DNA of 26,512 nt from a virus: IMG/VR virus record IMGVR_UViG_3300049893_002484, positions 1-26,512 of that record; one strand, given 5' to 3'. This document shows positions 3,674 to 17,273 of the stretch, one piece after another (positions within the stretch are counted from its first letter, which is position 1; the number at the start of each line of letters is the position of its first letter). The notes under the pieces were generated by a model. That model searched no databases. It was not told the DNA's origin and saw only the letters and a program-made list of their open reading frames with translations. The translations under genes and the position numbers were made by a program.

Positions 3674-4086
3674 TTCTGAAGCTTGCGCGTTTGCCCCCAG
3701 GCCCCGAGCGCATGTTCGGGAACCTGTCCGTGTACAAGGACGATGGGAAGACCTTGGTGTACTACTGTCATACCCTGGAAGATATCCCGCGTGACATAAA
3801 GATTCCCGGCAAAACCGCCATTCCTGCGGGACGCTACGAAGTGATTATCAATTGGTCCAACCGCTTCCAGCGCAAGATGCCCTTGCTGTTAGGAGTGCCG
3901 GGATTCGAGGGAGTGCGGATACACTCGGGGAATACAGAAGCCGACACGGAAGGCTGCATACTGGTCGGCTTGGGGAAAACAGAGCTAGGGCTGCTTAGGA
4001 GCCGGGATGCCTTCGCACTCTTGTTTCAGCACATTATCGCTGGGACGGAAGGCGGGAAGCTATTTATTACTATCGGGATGACATGA
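3670..4086 (+). CDS. DUF5675 family protein
   Basis: 138 aa from the GTG at 3670, which overlaps the previous stop (GTGA); the frame is open further upstream but only inside the neighbouring gene. Core features of the family are visible: the N-terminal strand LKLARLP, the YYCHTLEDIPRDIKIPGKTA segment, AIPAGRYEV, and GVRIHSGNTEADTEGCILVG. The conserved H, S and GC are reminiscent of L,D-transpeptidase-like folds, but no activity is established. The family is common in phage lysis regions. The 3' end overlaps a convergent gene by 27 bp. Confidence 0.8.
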   Translation: MILKLARLPPGPERMFGNLSVYKDDGKTLVYYCHTLEDIPRDIKIPGKTAIPAGRYEVIINWSNRFQRKMPLLLGVPGFEGVRIHSGNTEADTEGCILVGLGKTELGLLRSRDAFALLFQHIIAGTEGGKLFITIGMT

Positions 4087-4473
4087 TGCCTCGTAATGCT
4101 TCAAGGTAAACAACCATCGCTCGGATTGCTGGCGAGCCAATGCGATATCATTCATCTCAATGCGAGCCATATTACTTCTCGCCAAGTAACCATTCATTAT
4201 TCTCTGTAATTTCCACACAATTTGGCGCACCCGTTCGGGGCCAATATCATATCTAGCGCCCACTTCGGCATAAATCTCCCCAGTGATCACGCGCCGGAAA
4301 ATATCTAGGTTTCGCTGAAAGCTAAGCGTCTTCCCGCGCGCCTTGTCAATTCTTTCTGCTTCGTCGAGTTTGGCGATATCGCGCAAGACACCCTGAAGTT
4401 TCTCCTGAATAGGAGCCATCAAGTCTTCAAGAGCTTTCTTTTCTGCCAGCAGAATCTCTTTCCGTGAGGGCAT
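4060..4473 (-). CDS. helix-turn-helix DNA-binding protein (sigma region-4-like)
   Basis: 137 aa. Residues 5-45 form a charged coiled coil. Residues about 57-93 (FRRVITGEIYAEVGARYDIG followed by PERVRQIVWKLQRIM) have the look of a sigma-70 region-4 or MarR-type helix-turn-helix, with the recognition helix at PERVRQIVWKL. The C-terminus is basic. It lies last in the minus-strand early operon and converges on the DUF5675 gene with a 27-bp overlap. Likely a phage transcription regulator; the target is unknown. No strong SD is seen before its ATG. Confidence 0.6.
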   Translation of the reverse strand: MPSRKEILLAEKKALEDLMAPIQEKLQGVLRDIAKLDEAERIDKARGKTLSFQRNLDIFRRVITGEIYAEVGARYDIGPERVRQIVWKLQRIMNGYLARSNMARIEMNDIALARQQSERWLFTLKHYEASCHPDSNK

Positions 4474-9285: not shown

Positions 9286-9314
9286 AGTATCTTCCTGCTT
9301 GTCGATCATGTCAA
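9286..9314 (-). promoter_or_regulatory. near-consensus leftward promoter
   Basis: On the minus strand TTGACA (9314-9309, perfect -35) is followed after 17 bp by GATACT (9291-9286, four of six at -10). Predicted transcription starts near 9279, just before the SD and ATG of the gene at 9256. It drives the long early operon to 4060. The -35 box lies in the operator-like dyad at 9297-9316. Confidence 0.65.
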
Positions 9315-9316
9315 GC
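9297..9316. promoter_or_regulatory. operator-like dyad overlapping the leftward -35 box
   Basis: The imperfect 20-bp dyad has arms GCTTG and CAAGC, with one extra symmetric base pair inside. It covers the whole -35 hexamer of the leftward promoter and lies 17 bp before the ATG of the divergent helix-turn-helix gene. This is where such a repressor would be expected to bind; binding is inferred. Confidence 0.45.
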
Positions 9317-9332
9317 ATTATCGGGAGAATTT

Positions 9333-9524
9333 ATGCGATACGTTAATATCATGGAAGAAGTTATGAATGAACTAGATAAATGGTCCGGTAACCTAGCAGA
9401 GCTTGCAGAACTCAGCGGGGTGAGCATTCATACAGTCTACAAACTGGCGAGCCGATATAATGACAATCCGACAGTGGAGACGGCGCAGAAGTTAATTGAT
9501 GTATTCACGTCCAATAAGCGCTAG
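9333..9524 (+). CDS. small helix-turn-helix regulator (Cro/CI-like)
   Basis: 63 aa; GGGAG precedes the ATG at 9333, which favours it over internal ATGs at 9351 and 9363. Residues about 18-56 (GNLAELAELSGVSIHTVYKL, then TVETAQKLIDVF) form a classic small Cro/XRE-type helix-turn-helix with the recognition helix at SIHTVYKLASRY. It is divergent from the early operon at 9256 and convergent with the Lar-like gene at 9528. It is likely an autoregulator of the 9257-9332 promoter region, possibly via the dyad at 9297-9316. Confidence 0.7.
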   Translation: MRYVNIMEEVMNELDKWSGNLAELAELSGVSIHTVYKLASRYNDNPTVETAQKLIDVFTSNKR

Positions 9525-11827: not shown

Positions 11828-12463
11828 GTGAATCCTTTAGCCATTGATCTTTTCTGCGGACTCGGAGGATGGACAGAAGGCCTGCTTGCAGAAGGATGGA
11901 AAGTCATCGGCTTTGATATTGAACGGCATGATTATGGAACCGGCGGATATCCTGCGCAACTCGTGCTTCAAGATGTTCTAACGCTCCATGGTTCGCAGTT
12001 CAAGGACGTTACTTTGATTGTCGCCAGCCCGCCTTGCCAAGCCTATAGCTACCGCGCCATGCCCTGGAGTCGCGCCAAGGCTTTGCCGCCGCCCGATAAT
12101 TCTCTGTTTGAGGCATGTTTCAGGATTCAGCGCGAAGCCTGCGAAGCCGCAGGTCAGCATGTCCCGATGATCGTGGAAAACGTGCGGGGCGCGCAGAAGT
12201 GGGTAGGCCGTTCACGCTGGAATTATGGGTCTTTTCACTTGTGGGGTGATGTGCCGGCGATGATGCCCTATGGCACTGCGCGTAAACAAGAAGGCGATCC
12301 CAGTTGGTTCTATGATAACTATGAGAATAGTGCCAGGAGGTTCAGTTCCAAGAGCAAGGAACGAAAAGCATGGTCGGCAAAAATCGCCAAGATTCCTTTT
12401 CCATTGGCTCAATACATAGCCAAGATATTCAAGCCTACTTCTTCTTATGCCCGCCCTTCTTGA
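11828..12463 (+). CDS. compact C5-cytosine DNA methyltransferase
   Basis: 211 aa from the GTG at 11828, the first good start after the previous stop. C5-MTase motifs are present: I (AIDLFCGLGGWTEGL, residues 5-19), II (GFDIE, Asp30), IV (ASPPCQAYS with catalytic Cys70), VI (VENVRG, 116-121), and a motif-X-like end (IPFPLAQYIAKIF, 189-201). It is about 100 residues shorter than typical enzymes, with a very small target-recognition region around 125-180. It probably protects phage DNA from host restriction. Its last 29 bp overlap an antisense gene. Confidence 0.85.
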   Translation: MNPLAIDLFCGLGGWTEGLLAEGWKVIGFDIERHDYGTGGYPAQLVLQDVLTLHGSQFKDVTLIVASPPCQAYSYRAMPWSRAKALPPPDNSLFEACFRIQREACEAAGQHVPMIVENVRGAQKWVGRSRWNYGSFHLWGDVPAMMPYGTARKQEGDPSWFYDNYENSARRFSSKSKERKAWSAKIAKIPFPLAQYIAKIFKPTSSYARPS

Positions 12464-12578
12464 TGCCGCTTATTTTCCCTTTGTTTTCCATGGCATATAG
12501 CACTTGCTCGCCTTTCTTTGAGCCATACTCTTTCTTCAGGGCGCGCTCGATTTTCTTTCCTTTGGCGGTTAGCGGCAT
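12435..12578 (-). CDS. small basic phage protein, MPLTAKGKKI family
   Basis: 47 aa on the minus strand with a strong SD (AGGAG, six bases before the ATG at 12578). The product reads MPLTAKGKKIERALKKEYGS, KKGEQVLYAMENKGKISGIK and a Lys-rich tail. This matches a small basic protein found in very many phages (M-P-L-T-x-K-G-K-K-I ... K-K-E-Y-G ... G-E-x-V-x-Y-A ... N-K-G-x-I), function unknown. It overlaps the methyltransferase C-terminus by 29 bp in antisense and starts 11 bp from the divergent gene at 12590. Confidence 0.8.
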   Translation of the reverse strand: MPLTAKGKKIERALKKEYGSKKGEQVLYAMENKGKISGIKKGGHKKK

Positions 12579-12589
12579 GAGATTCTCCT

Positions 12590-12826
12590 ATGAGTGAGAC
12601 TGCATTCGAGATTGTAGCGCGCAATCTTGCAAAGGCCAGGGGACTCAAGGCGCAGGAAGAAAAGGCTCGGGAAGGGCGATTGCAGGAAAGGAAAACCGAT
12701 CTGCAAAAGTTCTTTGCCCGGCATCCCGATATACAGGCCTGGGCCGAGGATATGAAGGCGCATTTTGGCGATAAAGTGAGAGTTAGGAGTTATGGAGAAA
12801 AGAAACAAGAGAGTGATAGTTTTTAG
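12590..12826 (+). CDS. small charged helical phage protein
   Basis: 78 aa, MSETAFEIVARNLAKARGLK then long charged helices and a basic middle (RLQERKTDLQKFFARHPD), ending GEKKQESDSF. No SD is visible before the ATG at 12590, because the upstream bases carry the antisense SD of the 12578 gene. The next gene starts 35 bp inside its end. Coiled-coil-like; function unknown. Confidence 0.55.
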   Translation: MSETAFEIVARNLAKARGLKAQEEKAREGRLQERKTDLQKFFARHPDIQAWAEDMKAHFGDKVRVRSYGEKKQESDSF

Positions 12827-13878: not shown

Positions 13879-14289
13879 TTAAGCGGCCTTTTTGAGAGTT
13901 GCGAGCGTAGTTGGGGAAAAGTGCAGGTCGAGTTCGACGCCATTGGCCACCAGTTCGGGAATGCTGATATAGCCTAGCTCGGCGCCATGGCCCAGATTTA
14001 CCAATCCGAAGGCTTGATGCTGACCGGGTTCGTCTGGAGTCTCGATATCTAGCTCCGTGATATACCAATCCGCGCCCCCTTTGAAGTAATGCAGGTAGGC
14101 AATCGCTTGATCGCCCAGGCCATCCTGCCCATGGGTGCGGGGCATATGCTCGATGAGTTTGGCGAGGGTATGGATTTTGTCGCGGAAATAATTCCCCTCT
14201 ACATCTGATGCGCCTGTTTTCATGAGCGCAAATTGTATTCTGGACAGAAAAGGGCGAATGATGTCGAGAGATTGTGTTAGTTTGCTCAT
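13879..14289 (-). CDS. DUF2958-like protein
   Basis: 136 aa; AGGAACAAAGCACC precedes the ATG. N-terminal helices (LTQSLDIIRPFLSRIQFALM) are followed by the DUF2958-type core: GADWYITELDIETPDEPG, FGLVNLGHGAELGYISIPEL and a final LDLHFSPTTLATLKKA. DUF2958 proteins occur on plasmids, phages and conjugative elements with no known activity. It has its own upstream spacer (14290-14394) with an inverted repeat, so it may also be transcribed separately. Confidence 0.6.
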   Translation of the reverse strand: MSKLTQSLDIIRPFLSRIQFALMKTGASDVEGNYFRDKIHTLAKLIEHMPRTHGQDGLGDQAIAYLHYFKGGADWYITELDIETPDEPGQHQAFGLVNLGHGAELGYISIPELVANGVELDLHFSPTTLATLKKAA

Positions 14290-14305
14290 GGTGCTTTGTT
14301 CCTAG

Positions 14306-14340
14306 TAAATGTATTAAGGAAATGTTTTGACATACATTTA
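14306..14340. promoter_or_regulatory. 9-bp inverted repeat upstream of the DUF2958-like gene
   Basis: TAAATGTAT (14306-14314) and ATACATTTA (14332-14340) form perfect arms around 17 bp, all AT-rich. It lies 17-51 bases before the ATG at 14289 and just beyond the SD, where an operator or AT-rich promoter would be expected. The rest of the 14290-14394 gap shows nothing else. Confidence 0.35.
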
Positions 14341-14394
14341 AGGACTTACAGCCCGCTGGATTGAGTACCAGCCCGCCCGCCTTGGTTGTAATGG

Positions 14395-14532
14395 CTATAA
14401 ATAGAGCTCCGCGTCCTCCAAGTGAAGAAAAGTCTTGATTAGCGCGCCGTTAGAGTCAAGTAGCTCATAAACCCATGTGGGTTCACGGAATAGAATGATA
14501 AGTCGCGGTCTTATGGAAAGTGGTTTGCTCAT
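14395..14532 (-). CDS. 45-aa phage protein
   Basis: ATG at 14532 preceded by the shared cassette TAGGAGCAAAGCACC, stop TAG at 14395. The product is MSKPLSIRPRLIILF, then EPTWVYELLDSNGALIKTFL and a final HLEDAELYL. This strand-turn-strand-helix layout (Y-x-L-x-D-x-x-G ... D-A-E-x-Y-L) is common in small phage proteins that echo a minimal alpha/beta unit. Function unknown. Confidence 0.6.
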   Translation of the reverse strand: MSKPLSIRPRLIILFREPTWVYELLDSNGALIKTFLHLEDAELYL

Positions 14533-14544
14533 GGTGCTTTGCTC

Positions 14545-14775
14545 CTATTCGATTGGTGTTTTAATCCGCTGCCACGTAAGACTACGGCAAGGACTGTTAG
14601 TGGTCTCTTCGTAAGCTATCCATTCCGCGCCACAATACAGGCACCGCCGATGTGATGGGCCAACGTAGCAATTGGATGTGCTCACATTGCCAGGGCCATA
14701 TCCGCCCCATTGCGGGCCATGTGCTCCGAATCGGCACAATAAGGCGCGGAGCATAAAGGGCTTGCCGTGGCTCAT
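14545..14775 (-). CDS. small Cys/His-rich phage protein
   Basis: 76 aa from the ATG at 14775, which overlaps the previous stop (ATGA). MSHGKPFMLRALLCRFGAHG begins it; further on SHRRCLYCGAEWIAYEET supplies C-x-x-C-G, so a zinc site with the earlier C and H is likely. Its TAG stop is part of the TAGGAG SD of the next gene. Function unknown. Confidence 0.55.
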   Translation of the reverse strand: MSHGKPFMLRALLCRFGAHGPQWGGYGPGNVSTSNCYVGPSHRRCLYCGAEWIAYEETTNSPCRSLTWQRIKTPIE

Positions 14776-14960
14776 TTTGTGTTCCATGAGTTCAGCGGCG
14801 TACCATCGGCATTGACCACATCATACTTATCGGCGCCGTGCGATGCTGCGAATGCTCTCGCATCGCGGTATAGCATAAATGCCGCGACTGGATTGCCTGT
14901 GCCTTTGTTGATAACGATAAAATCCAACAAGTTAAGATCAAATCGCGTTGTTTGGCTCAT
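14772..14960 (-). CDS. small phage protein, VVxxxTGNPVA type
   Basis: 62 aa after the cassette TAGGAGCAAAGCACC. LLDFIVINKGTGNPVAAFML, then YRDARAFAASHGADKYDVVN and a short tail. The layout is strand-turn-strand-helix-strand, resembling the 45-aa neighbour at 14395-14532 and many uncharacterised small phage proteins. Its start follows the upstream TAG by twelve bases. No function recognised. Confidence 0.6.
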   Translation of the reverse strand: MSQTTRFDLNLLDFIVINKGTGNPVAAFMLYRDARAFAASHGADKYDVVNADGTPLNSWNTK

Positions 14961-14972
14961 GGTGCTTTGCTC

Positions 14973-15194
14973 CTATCGTTTCTTTTGATCCCAAAAGGGA
15001 AGGTATGCAAAAGGGATTTCTAGCCATAATTTATGATCGATTTGATTTCTGAACGTGGTATAGAACCATTTACTGCTTTTGACCAATTTAATGGTTTCTG
15101 GGGTTGCCTCAACGTACAGATCAGATTCATGGTGATCTATTTGCGCGCCGATTGCCATTAGTTCAGCATAAGGATTGCGGGGTTCTGCGCTCAT
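14973..15194 (-). CDS. conserved small phage protein
   Basis: 73 aa after the cassette TAGGAGCAAAGCACC. AELMAIGAQIDHHESDLYVE, TPETIKLVK and LWLEIPFAYLPFWDQKKR follow a recurrent phage pattern (Q-I-D-H-H-E-S-D-L-Y-V ... F-R-x-Q-x-D-x-K-L-W-x-x-I-P-F-A-Y). It is probably a small alpha/beta protein; no activity is known. The stop TAG lies in the SD block of the next gene. Confidence 0.65.
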   Translation of the reverse strand: MSAEPRNPYAELMAIGAQIDHHESDLYVEATPETIKLVKSSKWFYTTFRNQIDHKLWLEIPFAYLPFWDQKKR

Positions 15195-15206
15195 GGTGCT
15201 TTGCTC

Positions 15207-15407
15207 CTAGTAAGTGGTGATTAGAGTAAGGTTTAATTCCACCCAAAGCCCAGGCGCGCAACACGCTTTCCATGTATTGAAAGTCTTTTCAAGCGCGAAG
15301 TAGCCTGATTCATGATCTCGGTACTTATTGAGTGGCAAATAAACGCCGGGGACTACCTGCGACTCTTGGAATCGTGCGAGCAATTGTGTTAGCTGTAAGT
15401 TGGTCAT
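15207..15407 (-). CDS. small phage protein, function unknown
   Basis: 66 aa after the second cassette type (ATAGGAGAATAGACC). MTNLQLTQLLARFQESQVVP, then GVYLPLNKYRDHESGYFALE and a final WVELNLTLITTY; helix followed by strands. Its TAG stop overlaps the TAGGAG cassette of the next gene. No family recognised. Confidence 0.6.
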   Translation of the reverse strand: MTNLQLTQLLARFQESQVVPGVYLPLNKYRDHESGYFALEKTFNTWKACCAPGLWVELNLTLITTY

Positions 15408-15410
15408 GGT

Positions 15411-15620
15411 CTATTCTCCTATCGGTAATACGGCTGTATTTTGGCCGGTACTCCACTTGTTTCCGCGACTATCGGTATATCGGCCAATGCTGCACTTGGT
15501 TAGTATTTCCATGCTATGCGGAAACCTGAATTGTTCGCCTTTAGCTAATCCGCCAAAAGGCAGTGCGCTTTGCCCCGCAATAAATCTTGCCCAGGTGAAG
15601 GCGGTGTTTACTTTCCCCAT
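15411..15620 (-). CDS. small phage protein, function unknown
   Basis: 69 aa after the ATAGGAGAATAGACC cassette. The C-terminal half (EILTKCSIGRYTDSRGNKWS, TGQNTAVLPIGE) has the C-x-x-x-x-R-x-Y ... G-x-x-x-x-T-G-x-x-T-A-V pattern seen in small phage beta proteins. The last residues IGE are encoded by the SD cassette of the next gene. Function unknown. Confidence 0.6.
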   Translation of the reverse strand: MGKVNTAFTWARFIAGQSALPFGGLAKGEQFRFPHSMEILTKCSIGRYTDSRGNKWSTGQNTAVLPIGE

Positions 15621-15623
15621 GGT

Positions 15624-15821
15624 CTATTCTCCTATCAAGCGTGGGAGTTCATTTGGTCCTAGCCATGCTGTGACTCGAACGTATTCGCCGTCATGAGCTT
15701 GCACTGGATACTCTATTTTGACTATCCCGTTGCGCAGGGCCATGATTGTGGCGAAGTACACCTTATCGTCGTAGCCTACGAATCGAGCGGTCATTCCTAT
15801 GTGCGCTTTGGTAACTCGCAT
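15624..15821 (-). CDS. SH3-like small phage protein, first of the leftward cassette array
   Basis: 65 aa after a variant cassette (GGAGAGTAGACC). KAHIGMTARFVGYDDKVYFA, TIMALRNGIVKIEYPVQAH and VTAWLGPNELPRLIGE are five short strands as in an SH3-like barrel (G-x-x-A-R-F ... V-x-I-x-Y). The end IGE is encoded by the SD cassette. As the first gene of the 15821-13751 block it faces the structured interval 15822-16224. Confidence 0.6.
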   Translation of the reverse strand: MRVTKAHIGMTARFVGYDDKVYFATIMALRNGIVKIEYPVQAHDGEYVRVTAWLGPNELPRLIGE

Positions 15822-15907
15822 GGTCTACTCTCCGGTTGGTTGATGAGGGCCTACATCTCCACTACATGCAGCATATGTGCCAGGAGATATGAGGGGCCAG
15901 GATGCAA

Positions 15908-15921
15908 TTGTCCTAGGACAA
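15908..15921. promoter_or_regulatory. perfect 14-bp palindrome TTGTCCTAGGACAA
   Basis: Every base pairs with its partner across the centre CCTAGG. It sits 87 bases before the first leftward gene at 15821 and 47 bases before the rightward promoter candidate, a natural place for a dimeric regulator site. The core TCCTAGGAC recurs at 13713-13721. Confidence 0.55.
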
Positions 15922-15967
15922 AAGTGCCGTACAGCGTCACAAGTGGACGCAAATTGCGGCAGTGCGC

Positions 15968-15995
15968 TTGACATTGGGATGGGATGGGCGAAAAT
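15968..15995 (+). promoter_or_regulatory. rightward promoter candidate before the structured region
   Basis: TTGACA (15968-15973, consensus -35) is followed after 16 bp by GAAAAT (15990-15995, four of six at -10). A start near 16002 would begin the transcript just before the first hairpin, giving a 5' leader of about 220 nt for terS or a separate RNA. Confidence 0.4.
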
Positions 15996-16001
15996 GCTGA
16001 A

Positions 16002-16187
16002 CAAGCGGCGCTGAATCCTAGCGCCCCTGTGTTCCAGACAGCATACCTAGTGGTACGGCGAGTCTGGCAGGGGATAAACGTGCACTAACGCCAGCAGCTA
16101 AGCGTTATCAGGGACAAGGGTAACTCCCATGCCCGACAGTAGAAGTTACTGACAGCCACGATAAACGCACAGGTGACGTCACCTTTT
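16002..16187 (+). ncRNA. candidate structured RNA or leader upstream of terS
   Basis: Five consecutive stem-loops can be drawn. P1: GGCGCT/AGCGCC (16007-16025). P2, long: CCCCTG/CAGGGG (16024-16029/16068-16073), stacked on CCAGAC/GTCTGG (16034-16039/16062-16067), with an inner TACC-TAGT-GGTA hairpin (16044-16055). P3: TAACGC/GCGTTA (16086-16107). P4: two nested GGG/CCC pairs (16111-16134). P5: CAGTA/TACTG (16137-16151). P1 and P2 compete for two C residues. The block ends in the short hairpin and TTTT at 16171-16187. It matches no RNA class I recognise; a packaging site is an alternative. Confidence 0.4.
16171..16187 (+). terminator. weak terminator-like hairpin / 12-bp palindrome
   Basis: AGGTG-ACGT-CACCT is a 5-bp stem with a tetraloop, followed by TTT and then ATA. 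The inner GGTGACGTCACC (16172-16183) is a perfect 12-bp palindrome, so it may equally be a protein-binding site. As a terminator it would be weak. Confidence 0.3.
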
Positions 16188-16224
16188 ATAGGATCTAGAT
16201 TTAGGTTAAACGGTAGATGAACAA

Positions 16225-16731
16225 ATGACTACTGATAATAATCAAGAGCTTGCGACTAATACAGACAAGCCAACGCTGAGCCCGCAACAATTAGGCGCGC
16301 TCATTACTAACTCGGGACGATCTCCCATAGCCTCACTCTCCGAACAAGAGCGCAAAGCACTCGTGTCCCGAGTGCTAGACCAATACTTGGAAGATGGGCA
16401 TTTGCGAGATATCGCACAGAGCGTTGGCGTAAGTCGTACCGGTCTCAATTGGGCTATCATCAAGTACGCTCCAGAAGATTGGCAAAGCGCACAAGCAGCA
16501 AGAGCGCTGTATGAGTTAGACGATGCGCAAGAGGCGATGGAGAGTGCTAGCGATGCTATCGCTGTCGGTCGCGCCAGAGAACAGGTGAAAGCTGCCCAGT
16601 GGAGATTGGAAAAAACATGTCGCAGACTCTACGGTGATATCACTCCGGACCGTGGCGGATCTGGAACAATCAACATAAACATAGGGATAGAGCGTAATGC
16701 TACAGTGACCTATGAGCATGACGAGAAGTAG
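16225..16731 (+). CDS. terS: terminase small subunit (Sf6-like)
   Basis: 168 aa. Residues about 40-80 form a helix-turn-helix (ALVSRVLDQYLEDGHLRDIA, QSVGVSRTGLNWAIIKY). Residues 85-135 form the oligomerisation helices, with the family signature GRAREQVKAAQWRLEKTCRR and LYGD, ending in a beta strand TININIGIERNATVTYE. This is typical of Sf6-like TerS, which recognises viral DNA and feeds it to TerL. It is the first gene after the hairpin-rich interval, a likely site of DNA recognition. The SD (GGTAG) is weak. Confidence 0.8.
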   Translation: MTTDNNQELATNTDKPTLSPQQLGALITNSGRSPIASLSEQERKALVSRVLDQYLEDGHLRDIAQSVGVSRTGLNWAIIKYAPEDWQSAQAARALYELDDAQEAMESASDAIAVGRAREQVKAAQWRLEKTCRRLYGDITPDRGGSGTININIGIERNATVTYEHDEK

Positions 16732-16949
16732 TCACATGCGCGTATGTGCATAAATGTGATTATGTTCACTCTTATTGCGCTGCACAATTCCCCGGGTAAG
16801 CATGCTTTCACCAGAAAGAATTCTTTTTTCCACCGGGCGACCGGCGAGAAATGAGGGGGGGGGGGAAGATGTTCACGCACATCCCTACCCCACACGCGCA
16901 TATCTCTCTCTTTCCATGCTCTCCTTGCCACACATATGAGGTTGGCATC
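16732..16949. other. gene-free gap after terS with G11 homopolymer
   Basis: 218 bp without a convincing gene. It has CACAT ... ATGTG repeats just after the terS stop (16734-16763), a palindrome AAAGAATTCTTT followed by further T (about 16816-16830), and a run of eleven G at 16855-16865. A terminator for terS or an internal promoter for the next gene may be here; neither is clear. Confidence 0.4.
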
Positions 16950-17273
16950 ATGAATATCGATAATCTTCTGGATGCCTGGTATGAGGGCGAGAAGGTTGTG
17001 GTAGTGGTGTGTTTGGATGACGGGGAGATTCAGGAGTTTTGGATGTATTTACGTCCGGCGAACTGTCCTGAGAAAGAGTTGGAGCGAAGGAGGGAGAGAA
17101 CGCTGAAGAGACTATTGGCGGAAGTATTTGAGTCGAATGCTGGGCCTAGTTTTTTTTTGGATCGCACAAGATTTTGGTTGTGGATCAAGGCCAAGGAAAT
17201 GGTTTCTGGAGAATATTGGGAAGATGTTATGGAGCCGATTACGTTGGAATATACAAAACGTCAGCCGTGGTAA
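16950..17273 (+). CDS. small phage protein, function unknown
   Basis: 107 aa from the ATG at 16950 (MNIDNLLDAWYEGEKVVVVV), preceded by GAGG; the frame is open back to 16851 through the G-run but lacks an SD. Strands VVVVVCLDDGEIQEFWMYL are followed by a basic helix ELERRRERTLKRLLAEVFE and a Trp-rich end. A run of nine T (17150-17158) lies in the frame and could slip. It sits between TerS and TerL; function unknown. Confidence 0.6.
   Translation: MNIDNLLDAWYEGEKVVVVVCLDDGEIQEFWMYLRPANCPEKELERRRERTLKRLLAEVFESNAGPSFFLDRTRFWLWIKAKEMVSGEYWEDVMEPITLEYTKRQPW

Follow-up and report, generated by a model that had tools for sequence, protein, structure and literature searches.

A Hairpin-Rich Interval Upstream of a Phage Small Terminase Gene as a Possible Folded Leader of the Late Transcript

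Introduction

Positions 16002-16187 of the IMG/VR record IMGVR_UViG_3300049893_002484 hold a cluster of hairpins in gene-free DNA just ahead of a small terminase gene, which raises the question of whether such a block acts as RNA, as DNA, or has no function of its own. The window analyzed here is the complete record, a metagenomic contig 26,512 bases long and classed as linear, and it is probably a fragment, since no major capsid protein appears among the profiled ORFs and the 5' end of the first ORF is missing. The original prediction, made from the sequence alone, placed the hairpins in a gene-free 403-bp interval at the TerS boundary, and this description holds: the interval covers 15822-16224, is flanked by a leftward 65-aa ORF (15624-15821) and by TerS (16225-16731), and contains only small ORFs that look non-genic. 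TerS is followed by TerL and the portal protein in the rightward operon. Given this divergent gene order, a rightward promoter is required in the interval, unless transcription enters from far upstream.

The features on which the analysis rests are the following, from left to right.

15624-15821, minus strand: first gene of the divergent leftward operon (ORF list; start-site motif)
15908-15921, no strand assigned: 14-bp perfect palindrome TTGTCCTAGGACAA, possible operator (palindrome scan)
15968-15995, plus strand: sigma70-type promoter TTGACA-N16-GAAAAT, 10/12, with a predicted transcription start near 16002
16002-16187, plus strand: the hairpin-rich block itself, for which a role as folded 5' leader of the rightward late transcript is proposed (fold)
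16007-16025, plus strand: stem-loop 1, GGCGCTG-AATCC-TAGCGCC, with a proposed start about 6 nt into the transcript (hairpin scan, fold)
16024-16073, plus strand: nested stem-loop 2, 6+6+4 bp with a 4-nt bulge (fold)
16086-16107, plus strand: stem-loop 3, TAACGC...GCGTTA (hairpin scan, fold)
16111-16134, plus strand: stem-loop 4, an imperfect GGG/CCC stem (fold)
16137-16151, plus strand: stem-loop 5, CAGTA...TACTG (hairpin scan, fold)
16171-16190, plus strand: 14-bp perfect palindrome AGGTGACGTCACCT and a short T-run, candidate weak terminator-like hairpin or dimeric DNA-binding site (hairpin scan, fold)
16225-16731, plus strand: terS, first gene of the rightward operon (phrog_1482, E 2.9e-4; Sf6_terminase PF20901, E 8.5e-4, under the curated cut-off)

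On the leftward side, one start-site motif is common to 15405-15423, 15618-15636 and 15819-15837, and the small leftward genes of 14271-15837 carry the start-site motifs GCTCATGGTGCTTTG(C/T)TCCTA (four copies) and CATGGTCTA(T/C)TCTCC (three copies), the former without a match in other viral contigs in a DNA pattern search.

Hairpins and Folding Strength

Five perfect stem-loops had been described in the block. They are present as placed, but four non-overlapping ones are perfect (16007-16025, 16086-16107, 16137-16151 and 16171-16184), to which the nested stem is added, and that at 16111-16134 is imperfect. The 50-nt nested stem with 6+6+4 bp is found as described at 16024-16073, with a folding energy of -26.3 kcal/mol, and it competes with stem-loop 1, since its outer CC is common to both. 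The count of four perfect hairpins is slightly out of the ordinary: it compares with a mean of 1.2 in shuffled sequence, and at least four occur in 2.2% of 500 shuffles and in 2.7% of the contig's 186-nt windows.

Folding against shuffled sequence, the check proposed with the original prediction, revealed a moderate excess that is not exceptional against non-coding DNA of relatives. With 1000 shuffles, the block reaches z -2.72 (p 0.011) on the plus strand and z -2.91 (p 0.006) on the minus strand; most of the excess is carried by 16002-16076 (z -3.2 on both strands), the remainder (16077-16187) has z about -1.8, and the DNA just upstream (15822-16001) shows no excess in the shuffle test. In a scan of 880 windows of the contig, with 40 shuffles per window, 19 windows fold better than the plus-strand block, which ranks 20th, and two better than the minus-strand block, which ranks 3rd. 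A survey of relatives covered 124 non-coding stretches ahead of TerL, comprising 956 windows: z is -2.8 or lower in 11.7% of the windows, -4 or lower in 4%, and close to -9 in the most extreme ones, although single values are rough at 25 shuffles per window. Since about 12% of these windows fold at least equally well, the block lies in the ordinary range; its hairpins are real, and their strength is ordinary for phage non-coding DNA.

These figures bear on the view that the hairpins lack a function of their own, the block being non-coding DNA in which local pairing is moderately high and which was chosen because it is eye-catching. The frequency of such folds in relatives fits this view, as do the z of about 0 in the matching interval of the nearest TerS homolog and the hairpin count, for which p is about 0.02 before any correction. 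Against it, the block coincides with the contig's best plus-strand promoter and 16002-16076 stands out by itself, and thus an absence of function seems doubtful, though by no means far-fetched.

The excess on both strands fits RNA and inverted repeats in DNA alike and does not discriminate between them, and a test for A-rich loops as a mark of the functional strand gave p 0.51. The minus strand folds at -72.4 kcal/mol versus -64.5 kcal/mol for the plus strand, with G-U pairs numbering 6 versus 2, as might be expected if the block encoded a leftward RNA, either the leader of the leftward operon or a small RNA. However, a strand difference of this size is usual across the contig (sd 9.4), where 44% of windows show one as large, and the interval has no minus-strand promoter of at least 9/12, so that a leftward RNA is quite improbable.

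Equal excess on both strands is also what inverted repeats in DNA would give if the interval were divergent promoter and operator DNA, its palindromes and inverted repeats being bound by phage repressors or activators and the RNA folding being a by-product. Two of the contig's four perfect palindromes of at least 14 bp are in the 403-bp interval, and a repressor-like HTH gene is present at 9333-9524. Nevertheless, the two palindromes of the interval differ in sequence, neither recurs in similar form at other likely control regions, and most of the hairpins have asymmetric loops, which makes an operator function unlikely, if well above negligible.

Promoter and Late Leader

The original prediction also saw a -35 and a -10 element just before the block, and these are confirmed as TTGACA and GAAAAT. 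The site is the only one on the plus strand with at least 10/12 in 26.5 kb, lies 12 bp ahead of the first stem and predicts a transcription start at about 16002, precisely where the fold excess begins. Sites of at least 10/12 occur at about 0.075 per kb and strand, which gives a chance of about 0.002 for a slot of 21 bp, a figure calculated post hoc. The minus strand of the contig has three such sites, of which that at 9314-9286 sensibly precedes a leftward gene beside the repressor-like HTH gene and the other two are intragenic. The HTH gene (phrog_9425, E 1.8e-8) adjoins this leftward promoter, TTGACA-N17-GATACT, within 9286-9524, and both together could be a lysis-lysogeny switch. Moreover, a leftward 137-aa ORF at 4060-4473 has a sigma-70 region 4-like HTH (E 0.008, under the cut-off) and might be a late regulator.

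The block is best read, with a probability of roughly 0.45, as the folded 5' untranslated leader of the late transcript that runs rightward through terS, terL and portal, regulating the amount of late mRNA in the manner of the lambda PR'-6S RNA-tR' arrangement, and this is more likely than a new RNA family or a packaging site. The structured leader of the original prediction is thus retained as the likeliest reading, because the best plus-strand promoter ends at the start of the fold. What is observed at the locus is a promoter match, a fold excess that starts at the same place, the hairpins and the gene order; from these we infer the transcription start and every regulatory step. RNA polymerase would start near 16002 from the promoter at 15968-15995, and the two first stem-loops would fold at the extreme 5' end of the transcript. 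About 186 nt downstream, ahead of terS, would come the weak hairpin at 16171-16190 and its short run of U. The leader would most likely set the amount of late mRNA through stabilization of the 5' end and/or through partial attenuation relieved late in infection.

Several observations speak against such a leader: the -10 element (GAAAAT) is poor, the terminator-like hairpin is weak, no Q-like antiterminator was recognized among the ORFs scanned, and the fold excess is equal on both strands and frequent in non-coding windows of relatives. In addition, L085 and L088, which have the same divergent order, have their promoter-like site close to the ORF in the terS position, just 20-40 bp or so ahead of its annotated start; therefore, there is no long leader there and the arrangement is not general in the group. 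A more specific proposal seems improbable: the late operon would be controlled in cis by an antiterminator or attenuator RNA leader that is specific to the phage, needs no known Q or put and has no sequence in common with those described.

Homologs and Related Loci

No known RNA family fits the block, as the original prediction had stated: among 4227 Rfam covariance models, none matches at the gathering score, and the best hit (E 1.4) is to an unrelated lncRNA model. The homologous intervals upstream of terS for which it proposed a search were not found by any of the searches. Thus, blastn of the region returned no homolog in phages or plasmids, DNA patterns for the nested stem and for the junction GGGGATAAACGTGCAC had no match in IMG/VR viral contigs, TerS peptide patterns and tblastn revealed no homolog, and single-sequence covariance models of both strands of the block, run over about 1.55 Mb of loci, mostly of TerL relatives, gave best scores at chance level (14.7 bits for the minus and 8.1 bits for the plus strand). 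The missing close relatives are partly a limit of the collections, since records very near the window may be absent from them.

The relatives of TerS, TerL and portal are all distant, with 40-54% identity. The closest TerL relatives (L003, L090 and L111) are 51-54% identical, and L111 has the nearest TerS homolog (40% over 104 aa), upstream of which the interval matching the block shows no fold excess.

Other structures were observed in further loci. In L002, whose TerL is 39% identical, a strong fold (664-849; z -4.7, 0 of 200 shuffles) occupies the non-coding interval before the ORF that precedes TerL and has no Rfam match; its kinship with the block was considered and is unsupported, as the L002 covariance model does not match the window. 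A divergent intergenic interval of Pelagibacter phage Hodr (L087, 2600-2740) has a very strong inverted structure (z about -8) without an Rfam match at the gathering score. Highly repetitive hairpin arrays lie upstream of tRNA genes in L109 (3519-3765) and L107 (121-420), with z about -7 to -9, and the related contig L003 contains a group I intron (12372-12592; RF00028, 74.7 bits). Clusters of hairpins are common between phage genes and call for caution: as long as homologs are lacking, such a cluster can be called neither an RNA family nor a packaging site.

Packaging Signals Near terS

The block adjoins terS, and the pac region of SPP1, which spans the promoters and the start of the small terminase gene (PMC4737164), occupies a similar position, so that 16002-16187 might be a cos or pac signal recognized by TerS. 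However, SPP1 pac is made of direct repeats, whereas no direct-repeat family (copies within 80 bp) is listed for 15800-16240, where the sole recurring sequence of the interval is GATAAACG, at 16073 and 16160. The pac site of P22, in turn, lies inside the TerS gene (PMC9611059), and the type of G-run that is enriched upstream of TerL in relatives sits elsewhere in the window. Consequently, the packaging element of the original prediction is unsupported, with no positive evidence in the block, and a packaging role there is very improbable.

The G-run in question has 11 G, at 16855-16865, in the non-coding gap after terS (16732-16952), and is followed by TTCACGCACATCCC. Plus-strand runs of at least 7 G number 16 in the kilobase upstream of TerL in 150 loci of relatives, an enrichment of about fourfold, while most of the remaining kilobases have about 0.01-0.04 per kb, and those at 4-5 kb upstream 0.05-0.08. 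In L085 (4197-4345) and L088 (1250-1363), from the related phages VA-RY-3 and Ss1, GGGGGAGGGGGTAA is followed by a CACGC-containing sequence and both share CACAGAAAA as well, before the ORF in the terS position; these common elements may represent a conserved cos site. The enrichment and the shared elements make 16855-16900, with its 11-G run, a better packaging candidate than the block, and a candidate cos-like site.

Comparison with Known Systems

Stem-loops that stabilize an mRNA from its 5' end are exemplified by ompA, and stem-loop 1, at a predicted distance of about 6 nt from the transcript end, would resemble them. A second parallel is the put antiterminator RNA of HK022, in which two adjacent stem-loops directly follow the promoter (PMC9378689). 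Here too, a pair of neighboring stem-loops, together about 70 nt long (16007-16073), comes directly after the promoter, and the block may work like put; however, stem-loop 1 is a plain short hairpin, and the duplex AGACG/CGUCU that starts putL stem I has no counterpart in the window when searched as the motif AGACG-N5-9-CGTCT.

The terminator-like hairpin with TTTT that had been predicted at the end of the block exists at 16171-16184, followed by TTTTAT, but it is weak: it forms only 5 bp in the RNA fold (-5.7 kcal/mol) and was not accepted by a terminator scan. The same scan also misses lambda tR' (in L252), and hence it is the comparison of the hairpins that carries weight for terminator strength. 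Lambda tR' has an 11-bp stem and TTTTTT, so the hairpin here is far weaker and falls short of a strong terminator. Moreover, the first late genes are lysis genes in lambda and terS here, and no Q-type antiterminator was recognized by profile among the ORFs scanned, a part of those in a contig that is probably a fragment.

The lambda PR'/6S/tR' region and the block have in common a promoter, a folded leader of about 190 nt, a terminator-like hairpin and a late operon, which are predicted from sequence in the present case. The lambda PR' promoter scores 9/12 and precedes a leader of 194 nt with -66.6 kcal/mol and z -3.46, compared with 186 nt, -64.5 kcal/mol and z -2.7 in the block. If the leader works as proposed, the phage would join those in which a folded promoter-proximal RNA controls the late operon.
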